Made by a program: the position numbers and the translations under genes. Positions 10,077-32,289 of a stretch of 38,072 nucleotides of DNA are shown piece after piece (the stretch's first letter is position 1; each line of letters begins with the position of its first letter). The stretch is from the IMG/VR virus record IMGVR_UViG_3300043424_000225, positions 1-38,072 of that record; one strand, written 5' to 3'. The stretch is from a virus. The notes beneath the pieces were generated by a model that saw only the letters and a list, made by a program, of their open reading frames with translations, had not been told where the DNA came from and searched no databases.

Positions 10077-11114
10077 ATGGCACTTGACTTTTTAGGCTCT
10101 AAGCAGACGGGTATGCAGAACATCAGTTCTACCATTGACCCCGATTTGAAGCAGGCGTATCTGAATCAGATCAACTACGCTAACACGGTGGCAGACCGTC
10201 CTTACCAACAATATGAAGGGCCGCAGGTTGCCGGGTTTAGCCAAGACCAACAGAACGCATTTCAAGGTATCAGGAATCTGCAAAACGGGTTTCAACCGTA
10301 CCTGCAAGGCGCTGCCAACGCAACGCAAGGTGTGATGGGCGCACAGGCGGGCAACTTCCTGACGGGCAACATTGGTGCGTACATGAACCCGTACACGCAG
10401 CAAGTCATCAACACCACGATGAGCGACATTGACCGTGCTCGCCAGATGCAGCAACAACAGGTCAACGCACAAGCACTGTCCCGTGGTGCGTTTGGTGGCT
10501 CTCGACAAGCGGTTGCGGAGGCTGAGAACAATCGAAACTTTATGGATCAGCAAGCCCGCACGATTGCCGGATTGCGTCAGCAGGGATTCGACACAGCAGC
10601 GGGTCTGATGCAGCGTGACTTTGACCGCGAGCAACAGCAGCAACAGTTGCGGCTTGGTGCAGCCAACCAATTCGCAAACCTCGGCAGTCTTGGTCAGCAA
10701 CTCGGGCTTAATCAGGCTCAAGCACTGGGTCAGGTTGGTGGCCTGCAACAGCAACAGCAGCAACGCAACCTTGATGTGGCAAAGGCTGACTTTGAGCGGC
10801 AGTGGAATTACCCCGTTCAGCAACTTGCCATTCGGCAGTCGGCGTTGCCTGCCCCCAACGCTTTCGGTGGTACGCAGTCCACGCCGATATTTGAGAACAA
10901 CGCAGCAACTTTGGCAGGGCTTGTGGGTGCTGGCTCAGGTGTGGCTAAGAATCTCGGCATCACAGGCGCAGACATTGGAAGTGCGTTGGGCACGGGGCTT
11001 AACTTTTTGGGCGGGTTGGGTTCAAATCTGTTTAGCGGATTTAATTTGTTTGGCGGGTCATCGGGTGGTGCAAGTAGCCCATTGATAGGTGACTTTGACA
11101 GCACTTTTGGTTGA
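10077..11114 (+). CDS. Gln-rich internal virion or ejection-type protein
   Basis: The protein is 345 aa. A conserved-looking core reads NPYTQQVINTTMSDIDRAR and then LSRGAFGGSRQAVAEAENNR (about 103-160), a combination I associate with podovirus structural proteins. Long Gln tracts (QQQQQ) and helical heptads follow, and the C-terminal 90 residues are Gly-rich. It is probably packed inside the head or ejected with the DNA. The Gln runs are encoded by alternating CAG/CAA and create a spurious antisense reading frame at 10092-10823. Confidence 0.68.
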   Translation: MALDFLGSKQTGMQNISSTIDPDLKQAYLNQINYANTVADRPYQQYEGPQVAGFSQDQQNAFQGIRNLQNGFQPYLQGAANATQGVMGAQAGNFLTGNIGAYMNPYTQQVINTTMSDIDRARQMQQQQVNAQALSRGAFGGSRQAVAEAENNRNFMDQQARTIAGLRQQGFDTAAGLMQRDFDREQQQQQLRLGAANQFANLGSLGQQLGLNQAQALGQVGGLQQQQQQRNLDVAKADFERQWNYPVQQLAIRQSALPAPNAFGGTQSTPIFENNAATLAGLVGAGSGVAKNLGITGADIGSALGTGLNFLGGLGSNLFSGFNLFGGSSGGASSPLIGDFDSTFG

Positions 11115-22910: not shown

Positions 22911-24399
22911 AGCGCAACAACTCCTCACAATCTGACAGCGGATTGATTTTCCATTCCCCAACGCACCGATTCTCAAAACTTCTGCGCGGGTAGCCGGTAT
23001 GTTCTGGACACAACCATTCACTGTGTTTAATCAACCATCCGCAGTGATAGTCCACCCTTACCGATGGCGGTTTGCCCTCTTTTCGGTGTCGGTGATAGGA
23101 CACAGACATGACTTCAATTTCTTCGTCCTTAACCTGTTCTTTCAGCACTGCGCCGTCATACGCCACGACCTCATGCACAACCTCTGGCGGTGGGAACTCA
23201 TGATCGCAGTTGTGGCATTGACTGACCGCAGCGTGTACAACTTCCATGCAAGACGGGCATACCTTGGCAGGGGCTTGCCCATCTCCCCTGTTCTCGCCTG
23301 AAAACTTGGGTTGAACGTCATCAAATACGCCATGACGAACCACATTGCCACCGTAGTCCAGTAGCAAACAGTTATCCTTACCCTCTGCCGTCCTAGTCCC
23401 CCGCCCAACCATCTGGACGTATAGCCCCGTTGATTCGGTTGCTGTGAGCAACGCCACAAGGTCAATTTGAGGTAGGTCAAAACCCGTTGTCAGCACTTGG
23501 CAGTTGGCAATGGCTCGGATACTTCCGTCACGCATACCGGCATAAATACGCTCACGCTCTGCTTGCGTGGTGTCACCCGATACGACTTCACACACAAAGC
23601 CCTTTCGGTTAATTGCATCGGCAACGTGTTGGGCATGGTCTACACCGGCACAGAACAGCAACCATGACCGCCTGTTTGCCCCGTAACGGCATATCTCATC
23701 AGTTGCCATGTCCACCAGCGAAGAGGTGTCAGCAGCGGCCGCTAGCTCAGAAGCGATAAACTCCCCGCCTCTTTTGTGTACGCCCGACAAGTCAATGGAA
23801 CTAACCCCGCCTTTGCTAATGACGGGGGACAGATAACCGTTGTCAATCAGGTACTTAACGCCAATCTCATACGATATTCCATCAAACAGTGCGTCACTGC
23901 CTTCGTGTAAATAGCCAGAGTCCAGACGGTACGGGGTGGCACTGAGTCCGACTAGTTTCATCTTGGGATTGACTAGCCAAGCATCACGCAAGAACCGTTG
24001 GTACATGGTGCTGTCTCCACGCCCAAGAAGGTGGCACTCATCTATGATTGCAACGTCAAAGGGGTCAAAGTCACACGCCTTTTTGTAGATGGACGCAATG
24101 CCCGCCACCAATATGCGCTTGCCCTTGTCCTTGCGTTTGAGTTGGGCAGACCAGATGCCAACCGGAACGGACGTAAACGCCTCAATAGCCGCTTTGTCTT
24201 GCTTGATTAACTCTGCCCTATGGGTAAGCACCACCACACGGCTGTCAGGGTGTTGCGTGACCTCTGAGGCAAGCGTTCCCAATATGGGAGACTTCCCCGC
24301 CCCAGTGGGAGCAACAATCAGCGGGTTTTTCATTTTGCCGTTGTCCCAAACCTCATAGAGACTGTCCACAGCATCGCGTTGGTAGGGGCGTAGGTTCAT
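22822..24399 (-). CDS. SF2 DEAD/DEAH-type helicase with C-terminal zinc finger
   Basis: The protein is 525 aa. Motif I is APTGAGKS (30-37), motif II DECH (120-123), motif III SATP (about 154) and motif VI QMVGRGTR (about 335). A four-Cys zinc finger (CPSC ... CHNC, about 385-405) and a Trp-rich C-terminal domain follow. Such UvsW/RecQ-like phage enzymes unwind branched DNA during replication and recombination. It is coupled by ATGA to the SNF2-methyltransferase gene. A second helicase directly upstream makes an unusual pair. Confidence 0.9.
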   Translation of the reverse strand: MNLRPYQRDAVDSLYEVWDNGKMKNPLIVAPTGAGKSPILGTLASEVTQHPDSRVVVLTHRAELIKQDKAAIEAFTSVPVGIWSAQLKRKDKGKRILVAGIASIYKKACDFDPFDVAIIDECHLLGRGDSTMYQRFLRDAWLVNPKMKLVGLSATPYRLDSGYLHEGSDALFDGISYEIGVKYLIDNGYLSPVISKGGVSSIDLSGVHKRGGEFIASELAAAADTSSLVDMATDEICRYGANRRSWLLFCAGVDHAQHVADAINRKGFVCEVVSGDTTQAERERIYAGMRDGSIRAIANCQVLTTGFDLPQIDLVALLTATESTGLYVQMVGRGTRTAEGKDNCLLLDYGGNVVRHGVFDDVQPKFSGENRGDGQAPAKVCPSCMEVVHAAVSQCHNCDHEFPPPEVVHEVVAYDGAVLKEQVKDEEIEVMSVSYHRHRKEGKPPSVRVDYHCGWLIKHSEWLCPEHTGYPRRSFENRCVGEWKINPLSDCEELLRYAESLPKPKKIRVRQQPGKKFSEIVARTY

Positions 24400-26603
24400 G
24401 TTAATGTTCCAAAAAGTCCAATCTGTTCTTGACGTGCATCGTCAATGTTTTGACATGCCAAACTCCAGTATTGGGGCTTAAGTTCTGTTCCAACAAACCT
24501 GCGTCCCATCTTGACAGCCGTGTAACCTTCGCTACCGATTCCGGTGAACGGTGAGAAAACCAAGTCGCCTTTGTTTGTCCACAGGTGAATGCAACGCTCA
24601 ATAACGTCAAGTTGCAGCGGGCACATATGCTTTTCGTCGTTCTCATCACGCGCAGGCAGCTTGTTCAACGTGCGGCCTTGGTTGATGTCATCCCATATAG
24701 GACTGGCGTATTTCTGCCACATCATCACAGGCAAATCGTCACCATGAACCACCCGTTCTTCACATTCCCCAGGCTTACGCATCGTCACAACGTAATCAGG
24801 AAGACCCATGCGGCTCATGGTGCTGTTTTCTCGTATGGTCTTGTGCAGTAGGCCCAGTGCCTTGGTGCGCTGCATTGCAACAACTGGGTCTTTCCAGATG
24901 CAGACCTCAGAGTGATAGATAAACCCAGCGTCTTGAAATGCGCGAATCAAATCACCACGGAAGTCGCGCAGACCAATGAACCCTTGGCGCATCTTTGTTG
25001 TGGGCAGGTTCATGCAGTGAAAAGACACATTGCGCCCAGGCTTTATGACGCGGTAAAGCTCGGCAATCAGGAACTTGATTTGCGCCACAAACTCGGCATC
25101 GTCCTTGCAGTTGCCCATGTCGTGGTCGCTGTTGGAATACACAAACAAGTCAGCAAACGGTGGCGAAAACACCGAGTAGTCAATGCTGTTGTCAGCCATG
25201 CGCCGCGCCCACTTAACGCAGTCGCCTAGATGCACTGTGAATCCATCGCCCTCATGGGTTTCCTCGCGGTACTCATCCACGACGTTCTGTTGACCGGCTA
25301 GTTCTTGGTTCATGATGTCTTTCATGTGTTCAATCATATTTGCGCTCATTTCGTGGTGCGCCAGTTCTTTGCGTTTCAGGTTGGCTAGGATTTGTCCCTC
25401 GGTTTCAGCGGTGAAAAGATGCACTTGCACCTCGCGCTTCTGCCCAAATCGGTAGCATCGGCGTACGGCTTGGTAAAACTTCTCGAATGAGTCATCCAGA
25501 CCGACAAACGCCATGCGGGCGCAGTGTTGCCAATTCATCCCAAACCCGGCAATCTTTGGCTTGCTCACCAGCACCCGAATAGAACCATGCGCGAACCCCA
25601 TCAGGTTCGTTGCCTTGGTTTCCACGCTGTCAGACCCTTGGACGTTCACCGCGCCGTCAATCAGTTGCGTGATTAGCTCGGCTTCGTCGTTAAGGTGGCA
25701 CCAGATAAGCCACGGCTCGTTCGGCTCGGCGTTGACAACATCGGCCAGCGCCTTGCAGCGGGCTTCGATGCTGTCGCGCTGTGCCTTGCGGCGCTCGGCC
25801 AGGCCCATTGCAGGGCGGGCGAACAGTTCGCCGGTCAGTTGTTCCGTTTCGACAACGTGCTCGTGATAGTGCAGTTTTGGCAGTTCGTAACGCTTGCCAT
25901 CAAAGCCTAGGTCTTGCGGGTTGCGTAGCACCACAGACCATGTGCCCATCCATTCCCAGAACTTGGATGCGCCCCATCCCTTGAGTCGCCATGTGCCGGT
26001 GTCGCCGGTATCGTTGACAAAGTAGGTCGCCAGCATCTCGGTGCGTGACATTACGCCCAAAAACTCGCACTGGTTGCCAAGCTCCTCAAAGTCGTTTGGC
26101 GATGGCGTAGCCGTGCAGCTAAGGCGATACGGGATGCCCTGCGCGGCGTCAATGATTCGCTGGCGCGTCTTTCCGTCATGCGACTTCAGGATGCTCGATT
26201 CGTCCAGCACCAGGCCATGCAGCGAGGTAAAGTCCACCGCGTCCATGCGCTCGTAGTTGGTAATCCATACCCCAGGCGCATCAGGCGTTCCTCCATGAGG
26301 GGCACGACGAACATCAATGCCAAAGGCTGCGCCTTGCTCAATCGTCTGCTCTGAAACGGCCAGCGGTGCCAGCACAAGCACCATGCCGCCAGTGTGCGAG
26401 GCCACCTCATCAGCCCACGACAACTGCATCAGCGTCTTGCCAAGACCGGTGTCTGCAAAGATAGCGGCACGACCACGGCGTACCGCCCACGAAACAATCG
26501 CATGTTGAAAGTCAAAAAGATGCTCGTTTAGCTCTCCCGGTTGATGTCCGGTGGCGACCTCGGCGCGTCGCTTGCCTTGAATAAATTTTTCGTAATTTAT
26601 CAT
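24396..26603 (-). CDS. SNF2-type helicase fused to a DNA methyltransferase
   Basis: The protein is 735 aa from the ATG at 26603 (ATGA overlap); a GTG at 26612 is an alternative. Residues 1-440 form an SNF2-like ATPase: ADTGLGKT (50-57), DESS (about 135), SCTATPSPND, and a C-terminal lobe ending QAVRRCYRFGQKREVQVH. Residues about 455-735 form an N4/N6 amino-methyltransferase: SPPF (about 480) precedes FTGIGSEG (about 686), the permuted beta-class order. It would methylate phage DNA while tracking along it, plausibly against host restriction. The helicase half is visibly more GC-rich than neighbouring genes, suggesting separate origins of the two halves. Confidence 0.88.
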   Translation of the reverse strand: MINYEKFIQGKRRAEVATGHQPGELNEHLFDFQHAIVSWAVRRGRAAIFADTGLGKTLMQLSWADEVASHTGGMVLVLAPLAVSEQTIEQGAAFGIDVRRAPHGGTPDAPGVWITNYERMDAVDFTSLHGLVLDESSILKSHDGKTRQRIIDAAQGIPYRLSCTATPSPNDFEELGNQCEFLGVMSRTEMLATYFVNDTGDTGTWRLKGWGASKFWEWMGTWSVVLRNPQDLGFDGKRYELPKLHYHEHVVETEQLTGELFARPAMGLAERRKAQRDSIEARCKALADVVNAEPNEPWLIWCHLNDEAELITQLIDGAVNVQGSDSVETKATNLMGFAHGSIRVLVSKPKIAGFGMNWQHCARMAFVGLDDSFEKFYQAVRRCYRFGQKREVQVHLFTAETEGQILANLKRKELAHHEMSANMIEHMKDIMNQELAGQQNVVDEYREETHEGDGFTVHLGDCVKWARRMADNSIDYSVFSPPFADLFVYSNSDHDMGNCKDDAEFVAQIKFLIAELYRVIKPGRNVSFHCMNLPTTKMRQGFIGLRDFRGDLIRAFQDAGFIYHSEVCIWKDPVVAMQRTKALGLLHKTIRENSTMSRMGLPDYVVTMRKPGECEERVVHGDDLPVMMWQKYASPIWDDINQGRTLNKLPARDENDEKHMCPLQLDVIERCIHLWTNKGDLVFSPFTGIGSEGYTAVKMGRRFVGTELKPQYWSLACQNIDDARQEQIGLFGTLT

Positions 26604-27574
26604 CTCTGCCACGCCCTCTTGACCGTTTCAACCTTCGCCACTTCCTCAACTACCTGCGGGGCGTTCCACTTTTCCCGCAACTCAAAACTAGACAGTCCCA
26701 ATGCGCCTGTCACCGTCCCATCGGTCAATGTCAATGAACCCGATGCAAAGTAATCAGGCTTTGCCTTGGTGAAAAACACCGTGTGAAAAATATGGTTGCC
26801 ACAGACCGCCCCAAACTCATGCCCGTTGTCGCACCTCCACCCACCCTCACGAACTGGGGATGACCACGCACAGGTGCGGCAATTAACCTCTGGCAACTTG
26901 TCGCCGTGGCATACGTCCCAATGGTCACAGAACTTGCATTGCCAAAACGCAGGGTCATCGCTTAACTTTGAGGGTGGCTCTTCGGCAAATATGATGCGCT
27001 CTGCCTTCTCAAACATCTGCCTTGCATGAACGGGCGAGAAAATAACAATCTCCCCGTATATCTCGTCCGTGTCTTTGTTTACCGCCAAATAATAGGCACG
27101 GCTCAGGTCAAGTGCCGACATGTAAACCTGCATCTGCAAAAAGTGTTCAGGCTTTGCCTTTTCAACACCCTCTGCCGCCAACACCTTGAACAGCTTGTCG
27201 CTGCTGGTCTTAAACTCCAAAACCATCGGCGTGTTGGGGTCTTCCTCAAACCCCTTTCCCACCCCGTCACACGAACCGGCAAAATGACCGCCAAAGGTGG
27301 AAAAGCCAAACTGTCGACCCGTATCGGGGTCGGCATCCCACACCGTTACACCAATGTCCCGAAGGTTCTTTACCAGTACCGGCTCTTCACGCTGCCCACG
27401 CTCAAACAGGCGCAGCATACGCCCGTCAAACTTTCTGGCGGTGGCATGACGAAACCCGTACCAAAGCGCACGGGCACACGGCTTTCCGATCTCACTTGCC
27501 CCCAAGTGGGGGCGGTGAGAATCAGATGCCGACTCATAAGCCCGATAAATGGCTGCAACAGTCGGCGTTGTCAT
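26600..27574 (-). CDS. Cas4/RecB-like PD-(D/E)xK nuclease with cysteine clusters
   Basis: The protein is 324 aa from the ATG at 27574, with GGAGG upstream (TAATG overlap with the SSB-like gene); a TTG at 27586 is unlikely. The active site reads GSCDG (Asp103) and EFKT (Glu120-x-Lys122), followed by LQMQVYMSAL. Cys33 in GKPCARALWY plus CKFCDHWDVC (about 211-220) match the Fe-S arrangement of Cas4/AddB nucleases. A further Cys set (NCRTC, WRCDNGHEFG, VCG) may bind zinc. It probably resects DNA ends for the adjacent recombination ATPase and SSB. Confidence 0.85.
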   Translation of the reverse strand: MTTPTVAAIYRAYESASDSHRPHLGASEIGKPCARALWYGFRHATARKFDGRMLRLFERGQREEPVLVKNLRDIGVTVWDADPDTGRQFGFSTFGGHFAGSCDGVGKGFEEDPNTPMVLEFKTSSDKLFKVLAAEGVEKAKPEHFLQMQVYMSALDLSRAYYLAVNKDTDEIYGEIVIFSPVHARQMFEKAERIIFAEEPPSKLSDDPAFWQCKFCDHWDVCHGDKLPEVNCRTCAWSSPVREGGWRCDNGHEFGAVCGNHIFHTVFFTKAKPDYFASGSLTLTDGTVTGALGLSSFELREKWNAPQVVEEVAKVETVKRAWQR

Positions 27575-29261: not shown

Positions 29262-29435
29262 TTGAAAACTCAGGAAGCGATTGATTTTTTCGGCAGCGTC
29301 AAAGAGTTGGCGCAGTTTCTTAACGTGTATCCGCAGGTTATTTACAAGTGGGGGGACTACCCGCCAGACGGTCGGCAGTACGAGTTGGAGGTCAAGACAA
29401 ACGGACTTTTGAGGGCAGAGACAAATGAAAATTAA
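29262..29435 (+). CDS. cro: Cro-like repressor
   Basis: The protein is 57 aa from a TTG at 29262, preceded by a full AAGGAGGT (29250-29257) five bases upstream. The sequence MKTQEAIDFFGSVKELAQFL, then NVYPQVIYKWGDYPPDGRQYELEV, matches the lambdoid/proteobacterial Cro pattern (FFGS.K.LA..L.....A.Y.WG..VP..R.Y.IEV), that is a helix-turn-helix followed by a short strand. It is the first rightward gene after the divergent promoters and overlaps the primase start by 11 bp. The non-ATG start with a strong ribosome site may limit dose. No CI-type partner is found. Confidence 0.82.
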   Translation: MKTQEAIDFFGSVKELAQFLNVYPQVIYKWGDYPPDGRQYELEVKTNGLLRAETNEN

Positions 29436-31638
29436 ATTCACCACGTTTCCCAATCACTCTGCAATGCGTAAGGACGAGTGCGAATGGGAGGTTGTTGATT
29501 TGGTTGAGCATTTGAAAAACAGCGGCCCGTTTAGTCACAAGGGCGCGTGTCCGTGGATAAAGTTGGCGACCTTCGGGGCTAGGCGCACCCCGAAAAACTC
29601 CCTCCGTTGGGACGGCAACATCTTGGAGATTACCGGCATTGAGGGTGATTACGACGGCGGGGAAATCACTATCAAACAAGCCGTTGATAGGCTGTCTGAA
29701 TGTGGTATTGAGGCGATTGTGTATGCAAGCCCGTCCCACACCATTGCCGCACCCCGTTGGCGGGTTCTAGCGCCGCTATCCAAGCCTCACCCCGCCCACA
29801 TGCGTACTGTTCTCATGGGACGGCTTAACGGGGCTTTGGGGGGCATATTGTCGCCAGAGTCGTTTACCCTGTCTCAGTCCTACTACTACGGGGCGGTAGA
29901 GGGGGCGGTGTACGAAGTGGTGCATCTTGATGACGGCTTGCCCATTGACGAGTTGGACAGCCTTGACGAAATCGCCGTATTCAAAAAGCCAGCCGTTCAC
30001 AAGAACGAAGAAGGGGCGGGCGCTGACTACAGCCTGAACATGTTTGACCTTGCCGTTCGTCACTACGGGCGAAAGTTGAAGACGGGGGACAATCGCCGTG
30101 AGTTGTTGAAGGCTTACATGGCGTCACGCTCAGGAAAGGGCTTGGTTCGTGATGAGGTTCTGGCTTTGGTTGAACAGGCAATAGAAACCTATTTTGACGC
30201 GTCTGACCCCGTGGACTTGAAAAACGTCTTTGAGATTGCAACTCACTTTGCAGACAAGGACGAGGCAGACCAACCGGTTGAACTCAGTTTGATGTTAAAG
30301 GCAATCAGCAGCCGTGCGAAAGGGGCGGTTATAGACACACCCACTGGCGAGGTTGAGCAAGCCCTTCCAGACCCGTTCAGGGGGGCTATGACGGACATTG
30401 TAAATGCCTCCCTTGTCAGTGCCTTCAAACCACAACCTGAACTTGCCACCCTGTCTGCCCTTATCGCAATGGCTTCGTGCATCTCAGGCGAATACTCAAC
30501 CTCATCAGGCGGTCGTTTTAACCTCTACGGCATTGGGGCGTTGAATTCAGGTGGGGGCAAGGACAACCCCCGAAGCCTGGCCGAGAACATTTGCGCCGTT
30601 GGCAGTGGAACGATTTTAGGCAAGCCAGCGTCGGGCGCAAGTCTTGAAGACCACATCCTGTCACGCAAAAACCAGTTGGTAAGCGTTGATGAAATGTCGT
30701 TCATGCTTGATGCCGCCAATGACGAGAAAGCCCCCGCTCATCTCAAAGACTTGGTTGCCGTGTTGCTCAAACTGTACTCAGCCTCCCGCAACACATACAG
30801 CCGCCGGATTCGTGCCAAGCAAACAGGCATGAAAAACGATGATGTGGTGTCAATCCCCAACCCTTGCGTGTCCATGCTTGGATTTAGCACCGTTGAAGGC
30901 TTTTCCCGTGCTTTCACTGAGTCAAACCTTACGGACGGTTTAATTGGGCGCATGTTGTTTGTCATGGGGCGCAATGACGTAAGACCCAAAAGACCGTCCA
31001 CCCCAATGGCAATTCCCAATTCAGTGCAGGCAATCGTGGGGGCAATGGCTCCGATTAACTCTTTTGCTCAGTCCGGTGTTACGGGTTCAAACGGCGGGGT
31101 TATTGTGGCTGAAACACAAGACGCCGCACAAATGCTGAATGACATATTGGAGAATTGCGAATTTGACCGCGATAGAAGTCAGGTCGTGGCGACAAGTTTA
31201 TATGCCCGTTCTTTTGAAAAGATTGAACGCATATCGGGCGTTTTGGCAATTTGGGATGACCCGACAAGTCCGGTAATTACGGTTGAGCACGTTCAATGGG
31301 CAAAGTCGTTTGTTTATTGTTCGGATGCAACGGTAATGGGATTTGTTAAAAACAGGATGGTGGTTAATGAGTCTATGGAGAATCTTAAAAAGATTCGTGG
31401 GTTAATTAAAAAGATAATGAATAAGGAAGTTAAATTTCTCAGGAGCATGGAAAAGGAAGCCGTTGAGGACGGGAACTGCGTAGCCCGTAGCCAGTTGCTT
31501 CGGGTGTCAAAGATGCCCGTTCAGGTGTTCGACAACACGCTCAAACACCTCCACGACCTAGGGGAAGTGGTGGCTTTTATGCCCGATGGCAAGAAGCAGC
31601 AATTCATCACGGACATTGACCTAGGGGTGGACGCTTGA
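29425..31638 (+). CDS. Primase-helicase replication protein (RepA/DUF3987-type)
   Basis: The protein is 737 aa. The N-terminus (about 60-190) has ITGIEGDYDGGE with Asp75 and Asp77 and YASPSHTIAAPRWRVLAPLS, which resembles an archaeo-eukaryotic-type primase core. From about 320 a DUF3987-like ATPase follows: LNSGGGKDNPR (about 374) stands where a Walker A belongs and VSVDEMSFML (about 419) as Walker B. A helical C-terminus (about 640-737) looks like a winged helix. It should prime and unwind at the neighbouring origin candidate. The Lys of Walker A is followed by Asp rather than Ser/Thr, a notable deviation. Confidence 0.8.
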   Translation: MKIKFTTFPNHSAMRKDECEWEVVDLVEHLKNSGPFSHKGACPWIKLATFGARRTPKNSLRWDGNILEITGIEGDYDGGEITIKQAVDRLSECGIEAIVYASPSHTIAAPRWRVLAPLSKPHPAHMRTVLMGRLNGALGGILSPESFTLSQSYYYGAVEGAVYEVVHLDDGLPIDELDSLDEIAVFKKPAVHKNEEGAGADYSLNMFDLAVRHYGRKLKTGDNRRELLKAYMASRSGKGLVRDEVLALVEQAIETYFDASDPVDLKNVFEIATHFADKDEADQPVELSLMLKAISSRAKGAVIDTPTGEVEQALPDPFRGAMTDIVNASLVSAFKPQPELATLSALIAMASCISGEYSTSSGGRFNLYGIGALNSGGGKDNPRSLAENICAVGSGTILGKPASGASLEDHILSRKNQLVSVDEMSFMLDAANDEKAPAHLKDLVAVLLKLYSASRNTYSRRIRAKQTGMKNDDVVSIPNPCVSMLGFSTVEGFSRAFTESNLTDGLIGRMLFVMGRNDVRPKRPSTPMAIPNSVQAIVGAMAPINSFAQSGVTGSNGGVIVAETQDAAQMLNDILENCEFDRDRSQVVATSLYARSFEKIERISGVLAIWDDPTSPVITVEHVQWAKSFVYCSDATVMGFVKNRMVVNESMENLKKIRGLIKKIMNKEVKFLRSMEKEAVEDGNCVARSQLLRVSKMPVQVFDNTLKHLHDLGEVVAFMPDGKKQQFITDIDLGVDA

Positions 31639-31747
31639 GGCAGTGTTCTCCGTGTTCCCGAGTGTTCCCGACCCCTAGAGAACATGGAAACCCGCACCAG
31701 CACTACGTTTCCCGCGTTCCGGCGTGTTCCCCTATGTTCTCATATTC

Positions 31748-31756
31748 TTATACACA
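31748..31756 (+). promoter_or_regulatory. Perfect DnaA box (TTATACACA)
   Basis: TTATACACA matches the TTATNCACA consensus for bacterial DnaA exactly. It lies at the left edge of the AT-rich core in the candidate origin, 6 bases after an iteron. Confidence 0.65.
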
Positions 31757-31865
31757 TACAAGAGCAAGAAAAAGACTTTTGGGATACACCTATAGTAAAC
31801 AAGAGAACACTATATATTTTTTATTATTAGATGTAGTGTCCATGCGGGTTTCCGTGTTCTCTTTT

Positions 31866-31877
31866 TGTTCCGGAACA
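31866..31877. promoter_or_regulatory. Perfect 12-bp palindrome TGTTCCGGAACA
   Basis: Two iteron half-sites meet head to head as an uninterrupted palindrome. It is probably the best dimer site for whatever protein binds the iterons. Confidence 0.6.
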
Positions 31878-31906
31878 TGGCGGGAACATCGGGAACAAAC
31901 GGGGGG

Positions 31907-31935
31907 TTGTAGGGAACGAGGGGGTGGGGTATCAT
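31907..31935 (+). promoter_or_regulatory. Candidate promoter for the terminase operon
   Basis: TTGTAG (31907-31912), a 17-bp spacer and TATCAT (31930-31935). The -10 is the same hexamer as in the rightward early promoter; the -35 is weak (3 of 6). Iteron copies at 31890-31897 and 31912-31917 abut or overlap it, so the iteron-binding protein may also regulate late transcription. Confidence 0.45.
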
Positions 31936-31974
31936 GGTGTTGTCAAAAACCTACAACCAGAGAGGCAGGTTCAA

Positions 31975-32289
31975 GTGACGACAAGCGACAGCAAAATAGT
32001 GAAGGCTGGTGCAAGACCAAAGCCACCGGCCGCAGGTAAGGGTCGGGTTAAGGGAACGCCTAACAAGGCGACCAAAGCCTTCAGAGAGACGGTGCAAAGG
32101 CTTTTGGAAGACAACTCAGACAACATAAGCATTTGGCTCACGCAGGTTGCCAGTGAAGACCCTGGCAAGGCGTTGGACTTAATTAGCCGATTAGCTGAAT
32201 TTGCCGCGCCTAAATTGGCGAGGACTGAAGTTGTTGGCGATGAGGAAAAACCAATTGCTTTGAGTTTCGGATGGAAAAGCACATCCTGA
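31975..32289 (+). CDS. terS: Terminase small subunit
   Basis: The protein is 104 aa from a GTG at 31975, with GAGAGG upstream; the open frame from 31924 overlaps the promoter. The N-terminus is basic (GARPKPPAAGKGRVKGTPNK), followed by a helical core (AFRETVQRLLEDNSDNISIW; GKALDLISRLAEFAAPKL). Phage small terminase subunits with a KGTPNK-type basic start bind the packaging site DNA and the large subunit. It directly precedes and overlaps terL by 19 bp, confirming the role. The family is inferred from pattern and context. Confidence 0.78.
   Translation: MTTSDSKIVKAGARPKPPAAGKGRVKGTPNKATKAFRETVQRLLEDNSDNISIWLTQVASEDPGKALDLISRLAEFAAPKLARTEVVGDEEKPIALSFGWKSTS

Follow-up and report, generated by a model that had tools for sequence, protein, structure and literature searches.

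A probable phage replication origin of TGTTCYC iterons around an AT-rich core, directly behind a DUF3987 primase-helicase gene

Positions 31639-31930 of the window (the whole stretch analysed, 38,072 nucleotides of IMG/VR virus record IMGVR_UViG_3300043424_000225) are very probably the DNA replication origin of this phage, opened by the adjacent primase-helicase. This reading draws on the sequence of the array and on comparison with related loci. To our knowledge, the replication origins of most environmental phages have yet to be described. A simple rule worked for many phages with unrelated iteron words: to search just past the primase gene for iterons that surround an AT-rich core. The features of the region are collected in Table 1.

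Table 1. Features of the putative origin and its neighbouring genes, in window coordinates
Feature	Position	Strand	Basis or remark
Primase-helicase, 737 aa, DUF3987 AAA+ helicase core, likely initiator	29425..31638	+	PF13148, phrog_3022, Foldseek
C-terminal domain, predicted helical HTH-type, proposed iteron reader	31342..31635	+	AlphaFold model
Left iteron cluster a: TGTTCTC, TGTTCCC, TGTTCCC at 31644, 31653, 31663	31644..31669	+	
Imperfect inverted repeat, left arm	31677..31706		
Inverted iteron	31678..31684	-	
Left iteron cluster b: CGTTCCG, TGTTCCC, TGTTCTC at 31715, 31725, 31735	31715..31741	+	
AT-rich core, proposed melting site; inverted iteron inside at 31803-31809	31742..31854		
TTATACACA, DnaA-box-like	31748..31756	+	not conserved in relatives, role unsupported
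Imperfect inverted repeat, right arm	31833..31862		
Two forward iterons: TGTTCTC 31855, TGTTCCG 31866	31855..31872	+	
Right inverted iteron cluster: 31871, 31882, 31891, 31912	31871..31918	-	
Next gene, putative small terminase subunit, outside the origin	31975..32289	+	directly before terminase large subunit

The array occupies a gene-free interval (31639-31974) between the primase-helicase gene and the putative small terminase gene, and its first iteron lies 5 bp past the primase-helicase stop codon. Ten exact TGTTCYC/GRGAACA sites are found on the two strands of these 336 bp, along with four near variants (CGTTCCG at 31715, TGTTCCG at 31866 and, on the minus strand, TGTTCCG at 31871 and CGTTCCC at 31912). 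Among 1000 dinucleotide-preserving shuffles of the interval, in which any best 7-mer with one transition was counted, the mean was 3.0 and the maximum 5, as against the 10 observed. The interval is also the most repeated 336-bp stretch within the 38-kb window. Inside the clusters the iterons are helically phased, with spacings of 9 and 10, 10 and 10, and 11, 11 and 9 bp. AT content peaks at 77% in 60 bp of the core (about 31740-31840), compared with an average of 50% for the whole region. The first-pass annotation had described about ten such motifs, one helical turn apart within clusters, around an AT-rich core beside the primase-helicase, and each of these points is borne out. Its description of the motifs as mainly forward on the left and inverted on the right is a fair one, given six forward and one inverted iteron left of the core and two forward and four inverted to the right, with one further inverted copy in the core itself.

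Absent from that annotation was a second property of the array: an imperfect inverted repeat, made by its two halves, whose 30-nt arms match at 83%. The single strand folds far better than its shuffles (z = -5.1), and an Rfam search gave no match. A long imperfect hairpin of this kind raises the alternative that recognition depends on the fold instead of the repeats, as proposed for the archaeal plasmid pRN1. There, an essential origin 3' of the gene for a prim-pol/helicase/winged-helix protein requires a stem-loop and has no iterons (PMC4234260). However, iterons opposed across a core yield such a fold automatically, and a hairpin does not need the phased direct copies that are present on each side, making a stem-loop origin improbable here. 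Bordetella phage BIP-1, cited in the same paper, offered nothing usable at the coordinates examined.

The protein encoded next to the array is a likely initiator. It matches PF13148, the helicase domain of PrimQH-like DUF3987 primase-helicases (E=2.6e-9; 37.2 bits, above the curated cutoff of 27), and the DNA primase family phrog_3022 (E=2e-53), and domain searches found no Toprim or D5 match. Its predicted structure matches MCM helicases (Foldseek E=2.8e-5), with overall TM-scores kept low by the poor modelling of half of the protein. Since the first 180 residues, which lie outside the model, show no sequence match to any known primase fold, priming activity is assigned from family annotation; relatives of the protein match prim-pol structures, whereas the window protein alone matches none. 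The C-terminal 98 residues are modelled by AlphaFold as a small helical domain (mean pLDDT 78) that is common to the primase family. The best PDB matches of this domain, none of them significant, are mostly winged-helix regulators, which suggests that it may be a winged helix. Winged-helix domains at the ends of such primases have been proposed as origin readers (PMC5862659).

Strong comparative support for an iteron origin tied to the primase-helicase, as had been suggested for this region, comes from relatives of the protein. A first alignment (A1) was too divergent for scanning; a second (A2), built from five annotated primase relatives, led to 80 IMG/VR loci, at which a motif-agnostic test was applied. 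The recurrence of the best 7-mer was scored in 500 bp at four positions, with seven or more copies taken as an array. Across all loci, arrays were found directly 3' of the primase gene in 30 of 71 cases, compared with 1 of 72 at its 5' end, 0 of 73 inside it and 1 of 59 at 1.5 kb away. After removal of near-identical proteins and low-complexity words (such as ATATACA in L293), the final count was 15 of 59 non-redundant relatives, against 2 of 171 control stretches (Fisher p=2.8e-8). Most of these arrays start no more than about 30 bp past the stop codon, span about 160-340 bp and contain both orientations, with the most AT-rich 60 bp lying inside them. The words themselves vary (TCTAATG, TTGTATA, TGTTTAA, AGTGATA, GGAAGTG and others), but the arrays resemble one another in position, span and AT core. 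For example, the arrays of the Sphingomonas phages Kharn and Birtae are built of GTTGTAT and ATTCTAATG, respectively, that of Achromobacter phage vB_Ade_ART of GGGGCAG, and that of Synechococcus phage Ssp-JY40 of GTCGGTT. Six copies of TTCACAT stand behind the DUF3987 gene of Spartinivicinus ruber plasmid pC. At one locus (L211) the same layout is found with TGTTCCC iterons, behind a DUF3987 gene 23% identical to that of the window. The relatives tested are only about 20% identical to the window protein and most loci fail the strict repeat test; because only about a quarter to two fifths pass, the remainder must have degenerate, more distant or other origins.

The TGTTCYC word itself recurs behind primases of other kinds. 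A blind scan of IMG/VR for three closely spaced copies gave at least 120 matches, many of them one-direction repeats that sit within coding regions and are unrelated. Among the matches listed, 50 clusters had four or more copies in mixed orientation, and in 20 of these the gene immediately 5' of the cluster codes for a primase or helicase. The genes in front of such clusters, again among the matches listed, encode DUF927 proteins (L128, L186, L187, L199, L200), VapE (L135, L166, L132), a prim-pol plus RecA-like helicase (L119, L210), a lone RecA-like helicase (L111 and kin) and DUF3987 (L211). With the permuted control word TCTTGYC, 1 of 17 mixed-orientation clusters was directly 3' of a primase gene, a partly circular comparison, since some of the query proteins were themselves taken from TGTTCYC loci. 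The recurrence of TGTTCYC arrays 3' of primases and helicases of at least four domain types is a mildly new observation. Separately, an 11-copy TCTTGYC array lies 2 bp behind a VapE helicase gene (L364 1301-1578) and is a likely origin with a different word. GGGAACA/TGTTCCC arrays were also seen directly 3' of tyrosine integrase genes (L221 1309-1410, L196 798-887, L212 1256-1335), the integrase call coming from family search in L221 and L196 and from resemblance only in L212. These are perhaps attP arm sites or belong to a neighbouring origin.

The core of the window array contains TTATACACA at 31748, the only TTATNCACA in the window. One or more would occur by chance in 336 bp with a probability of about 1-2% (a rough estimate), and a plasmid-type iteron origin could be envisaged in which host DnaA, bound to TTATACACA in the core, loads the host helicase. 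The first-pass annotation had counted this site as part of the origin and likened the region to DnaA-dependent iteron plasmids. Neither suggestion held up, as such a box is absent from the 3' regions of 70 primase relatives, from 11 TGTTCYC arrays linked to primases and from the Streptococcus phage Sfi21 origin. Furthermore, the phage has its own MCM-like helicase gene. DnaA dependence is thus quite improbable, slightly more so than recognition of the stem-loop, and the presence of TTATACACA in the core may be a coincidence. GC skew, which had been put forward as a check, speaks neither for nor against an origin. Coding-strand skew is alike in all gene blocks (+0.08, +0.08 and +0.11 in the three), so the cumulative curve only tracks gene direction, and the skew argument was rejected.

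The array lies between an early gene and the late genes and is made of many short sites, as might an operator array for a phage repressor controlling the late operon. However, the downstream genes vary between phages while the 3' end of the primase is constant, operators do not typically comprise over ten sites arranged about an AT core, and sigma-70 promoter-like sites number 0 against 0.4 expected. A role as operator array is accordingly very improbable.

Structural relatives of the phage separate the primase from the terminase as the partner of the array. Relatives found by terminase and portal have the structural genes in common and mostly lack the window primase; where that primase is missing, the array is absent as well. 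Homologues of the putative small terminase gene precede the large-subunit gene in L004, L005, L010 and L011. One relative (L006), with a portal 96% and a large terminase subunit 77% identical to those of the window, carries in the same slot a different 820-residue primase (phrog_1156), with GGTTACA/TGTAACC repeats on both strands behind it. Since another primase comes with another iteron in the same slot, gene and repeat array appear to be exchanged together as a unit. This exchange, together with the structural relatives that have neither primase nor array, assigns the array to the primase rather than to packaging. The least probable alternative, a cos or pac site upstream of the terminase genes, might be suggested by the position of the array directly before the putative small terminase gene and by contigs from one sample that break within it, but was rejected because the array is not conserved with the terminase: across phages it goes with the primase, two relatives with large subunits 77% identical (L004, L005) have the small terminase gene 13 bp behind a helicase gene with no repeats between, and a long inverted repeat explains the contig breaks equally well. 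The breaks themselves, at 31805 and 31906, both fall within the inverted-repeat core and were seen on two contigs of sample 3300051213 that are 99.9-100% identical to the window, in a comparison that covered loci L001, L003 and L032. Because L032 joins the window end to the window start via about 674 extra bases, the genome is circular or permuted, with a length of about 38.7 kb.

An iteron origin behind an initiator gene is a layout already known from phage satellites and from at least one tailed phage. In PICIs, the origin lies 3' of the initiator gene and consists of two iteron sets with AT-rich DNA between them (PMC6092414). Both SaPI Rep and SCCmec Cch2 bind iterons that immediately follow the gene encoding the protein, and Cch2 does so with its C-terminal domain (PMC7581432). 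The window array is likewise immediately 3' of the primase/initiator gene. It differs in its DUF3987 helicase and its TGTTCYC word, and in that the window encodes an SU10-type portal and a terminase; as a phage with its own structural genes, it is PICI-like only in its origin. In SCCmec, the iterons just downstream of the MCM-like initiator helicase gene are only three AAGTG copies, the helicase is DUF927-related and the element is a chromosomal cassette (PMC7581432). In satellite phage P4, the gene for the alpha primase-helicase is immediately followed by crr, which carries type I repeats, TGTTCACC, in both orientations. These have TGTTC in common with the window array and differ from its word thereafter. 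Moreover, alpha is a Toprim/D5 protein rather than a DUF3987 protein, and P4 also has ori, a further site at a distance of 4.5 kb. The tailed phage is Sfi21 (NC_000872), whose annotated 302-bp non-coding origin is directly 3' of its primase, and in which a core of 93% AT is flanked on each side by GTTACT/AGTAAC copies; it differs in its D5-type helicase and separate prim-pol, its word and its host group. The earlier suggestion that the architecture is undescribed is therefore only half right, the layout as such being known. Within the literature searched, most subscription papers lying outside it, neither the layout in this phage type, nor its generality across full phages with DUF3987 primases, nor the recurrence of TGTTCYC was found.

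By analogy with P4 alpha, SaPI Rep and Cch2, a mechanism of binding, melting and priming can be proposed. The primase-helicase would assemble on the TGTTCYC iterons that flank the AT-rich core on either side, its C-terminal helical domain reading the iterons. Two rings facing opposite ways would then melt the core, the MCM-like DUF3987 motor would unwind the DNA, and the primase-helicase, or a partner, would prime both strands. A much broader generalization is possible but doubtful: that in most tailed phages whose primase-helicase is AEP or D5-like (DUF3987, DUF927, VapE, prim-pol plus RecA-like) an iteron origin lies right behind the gene, that gene and origin form one travelling cassette whose word co-evolves with the C-terminal domain, and that TGTTC is an old word shared from P4 alpha to DUF3987 rather than a repeated invention.

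Two other features of the window lie outside this region. A single gene at 24396-26612 on the minus strand encodes a DEAD/SNF2-type helicase fused to an N6/N4 DNA methylase domain, and a run of CAGCAGC-type repeats in a coding region (10473-10900) ranks second among the window's repetitive stretches.
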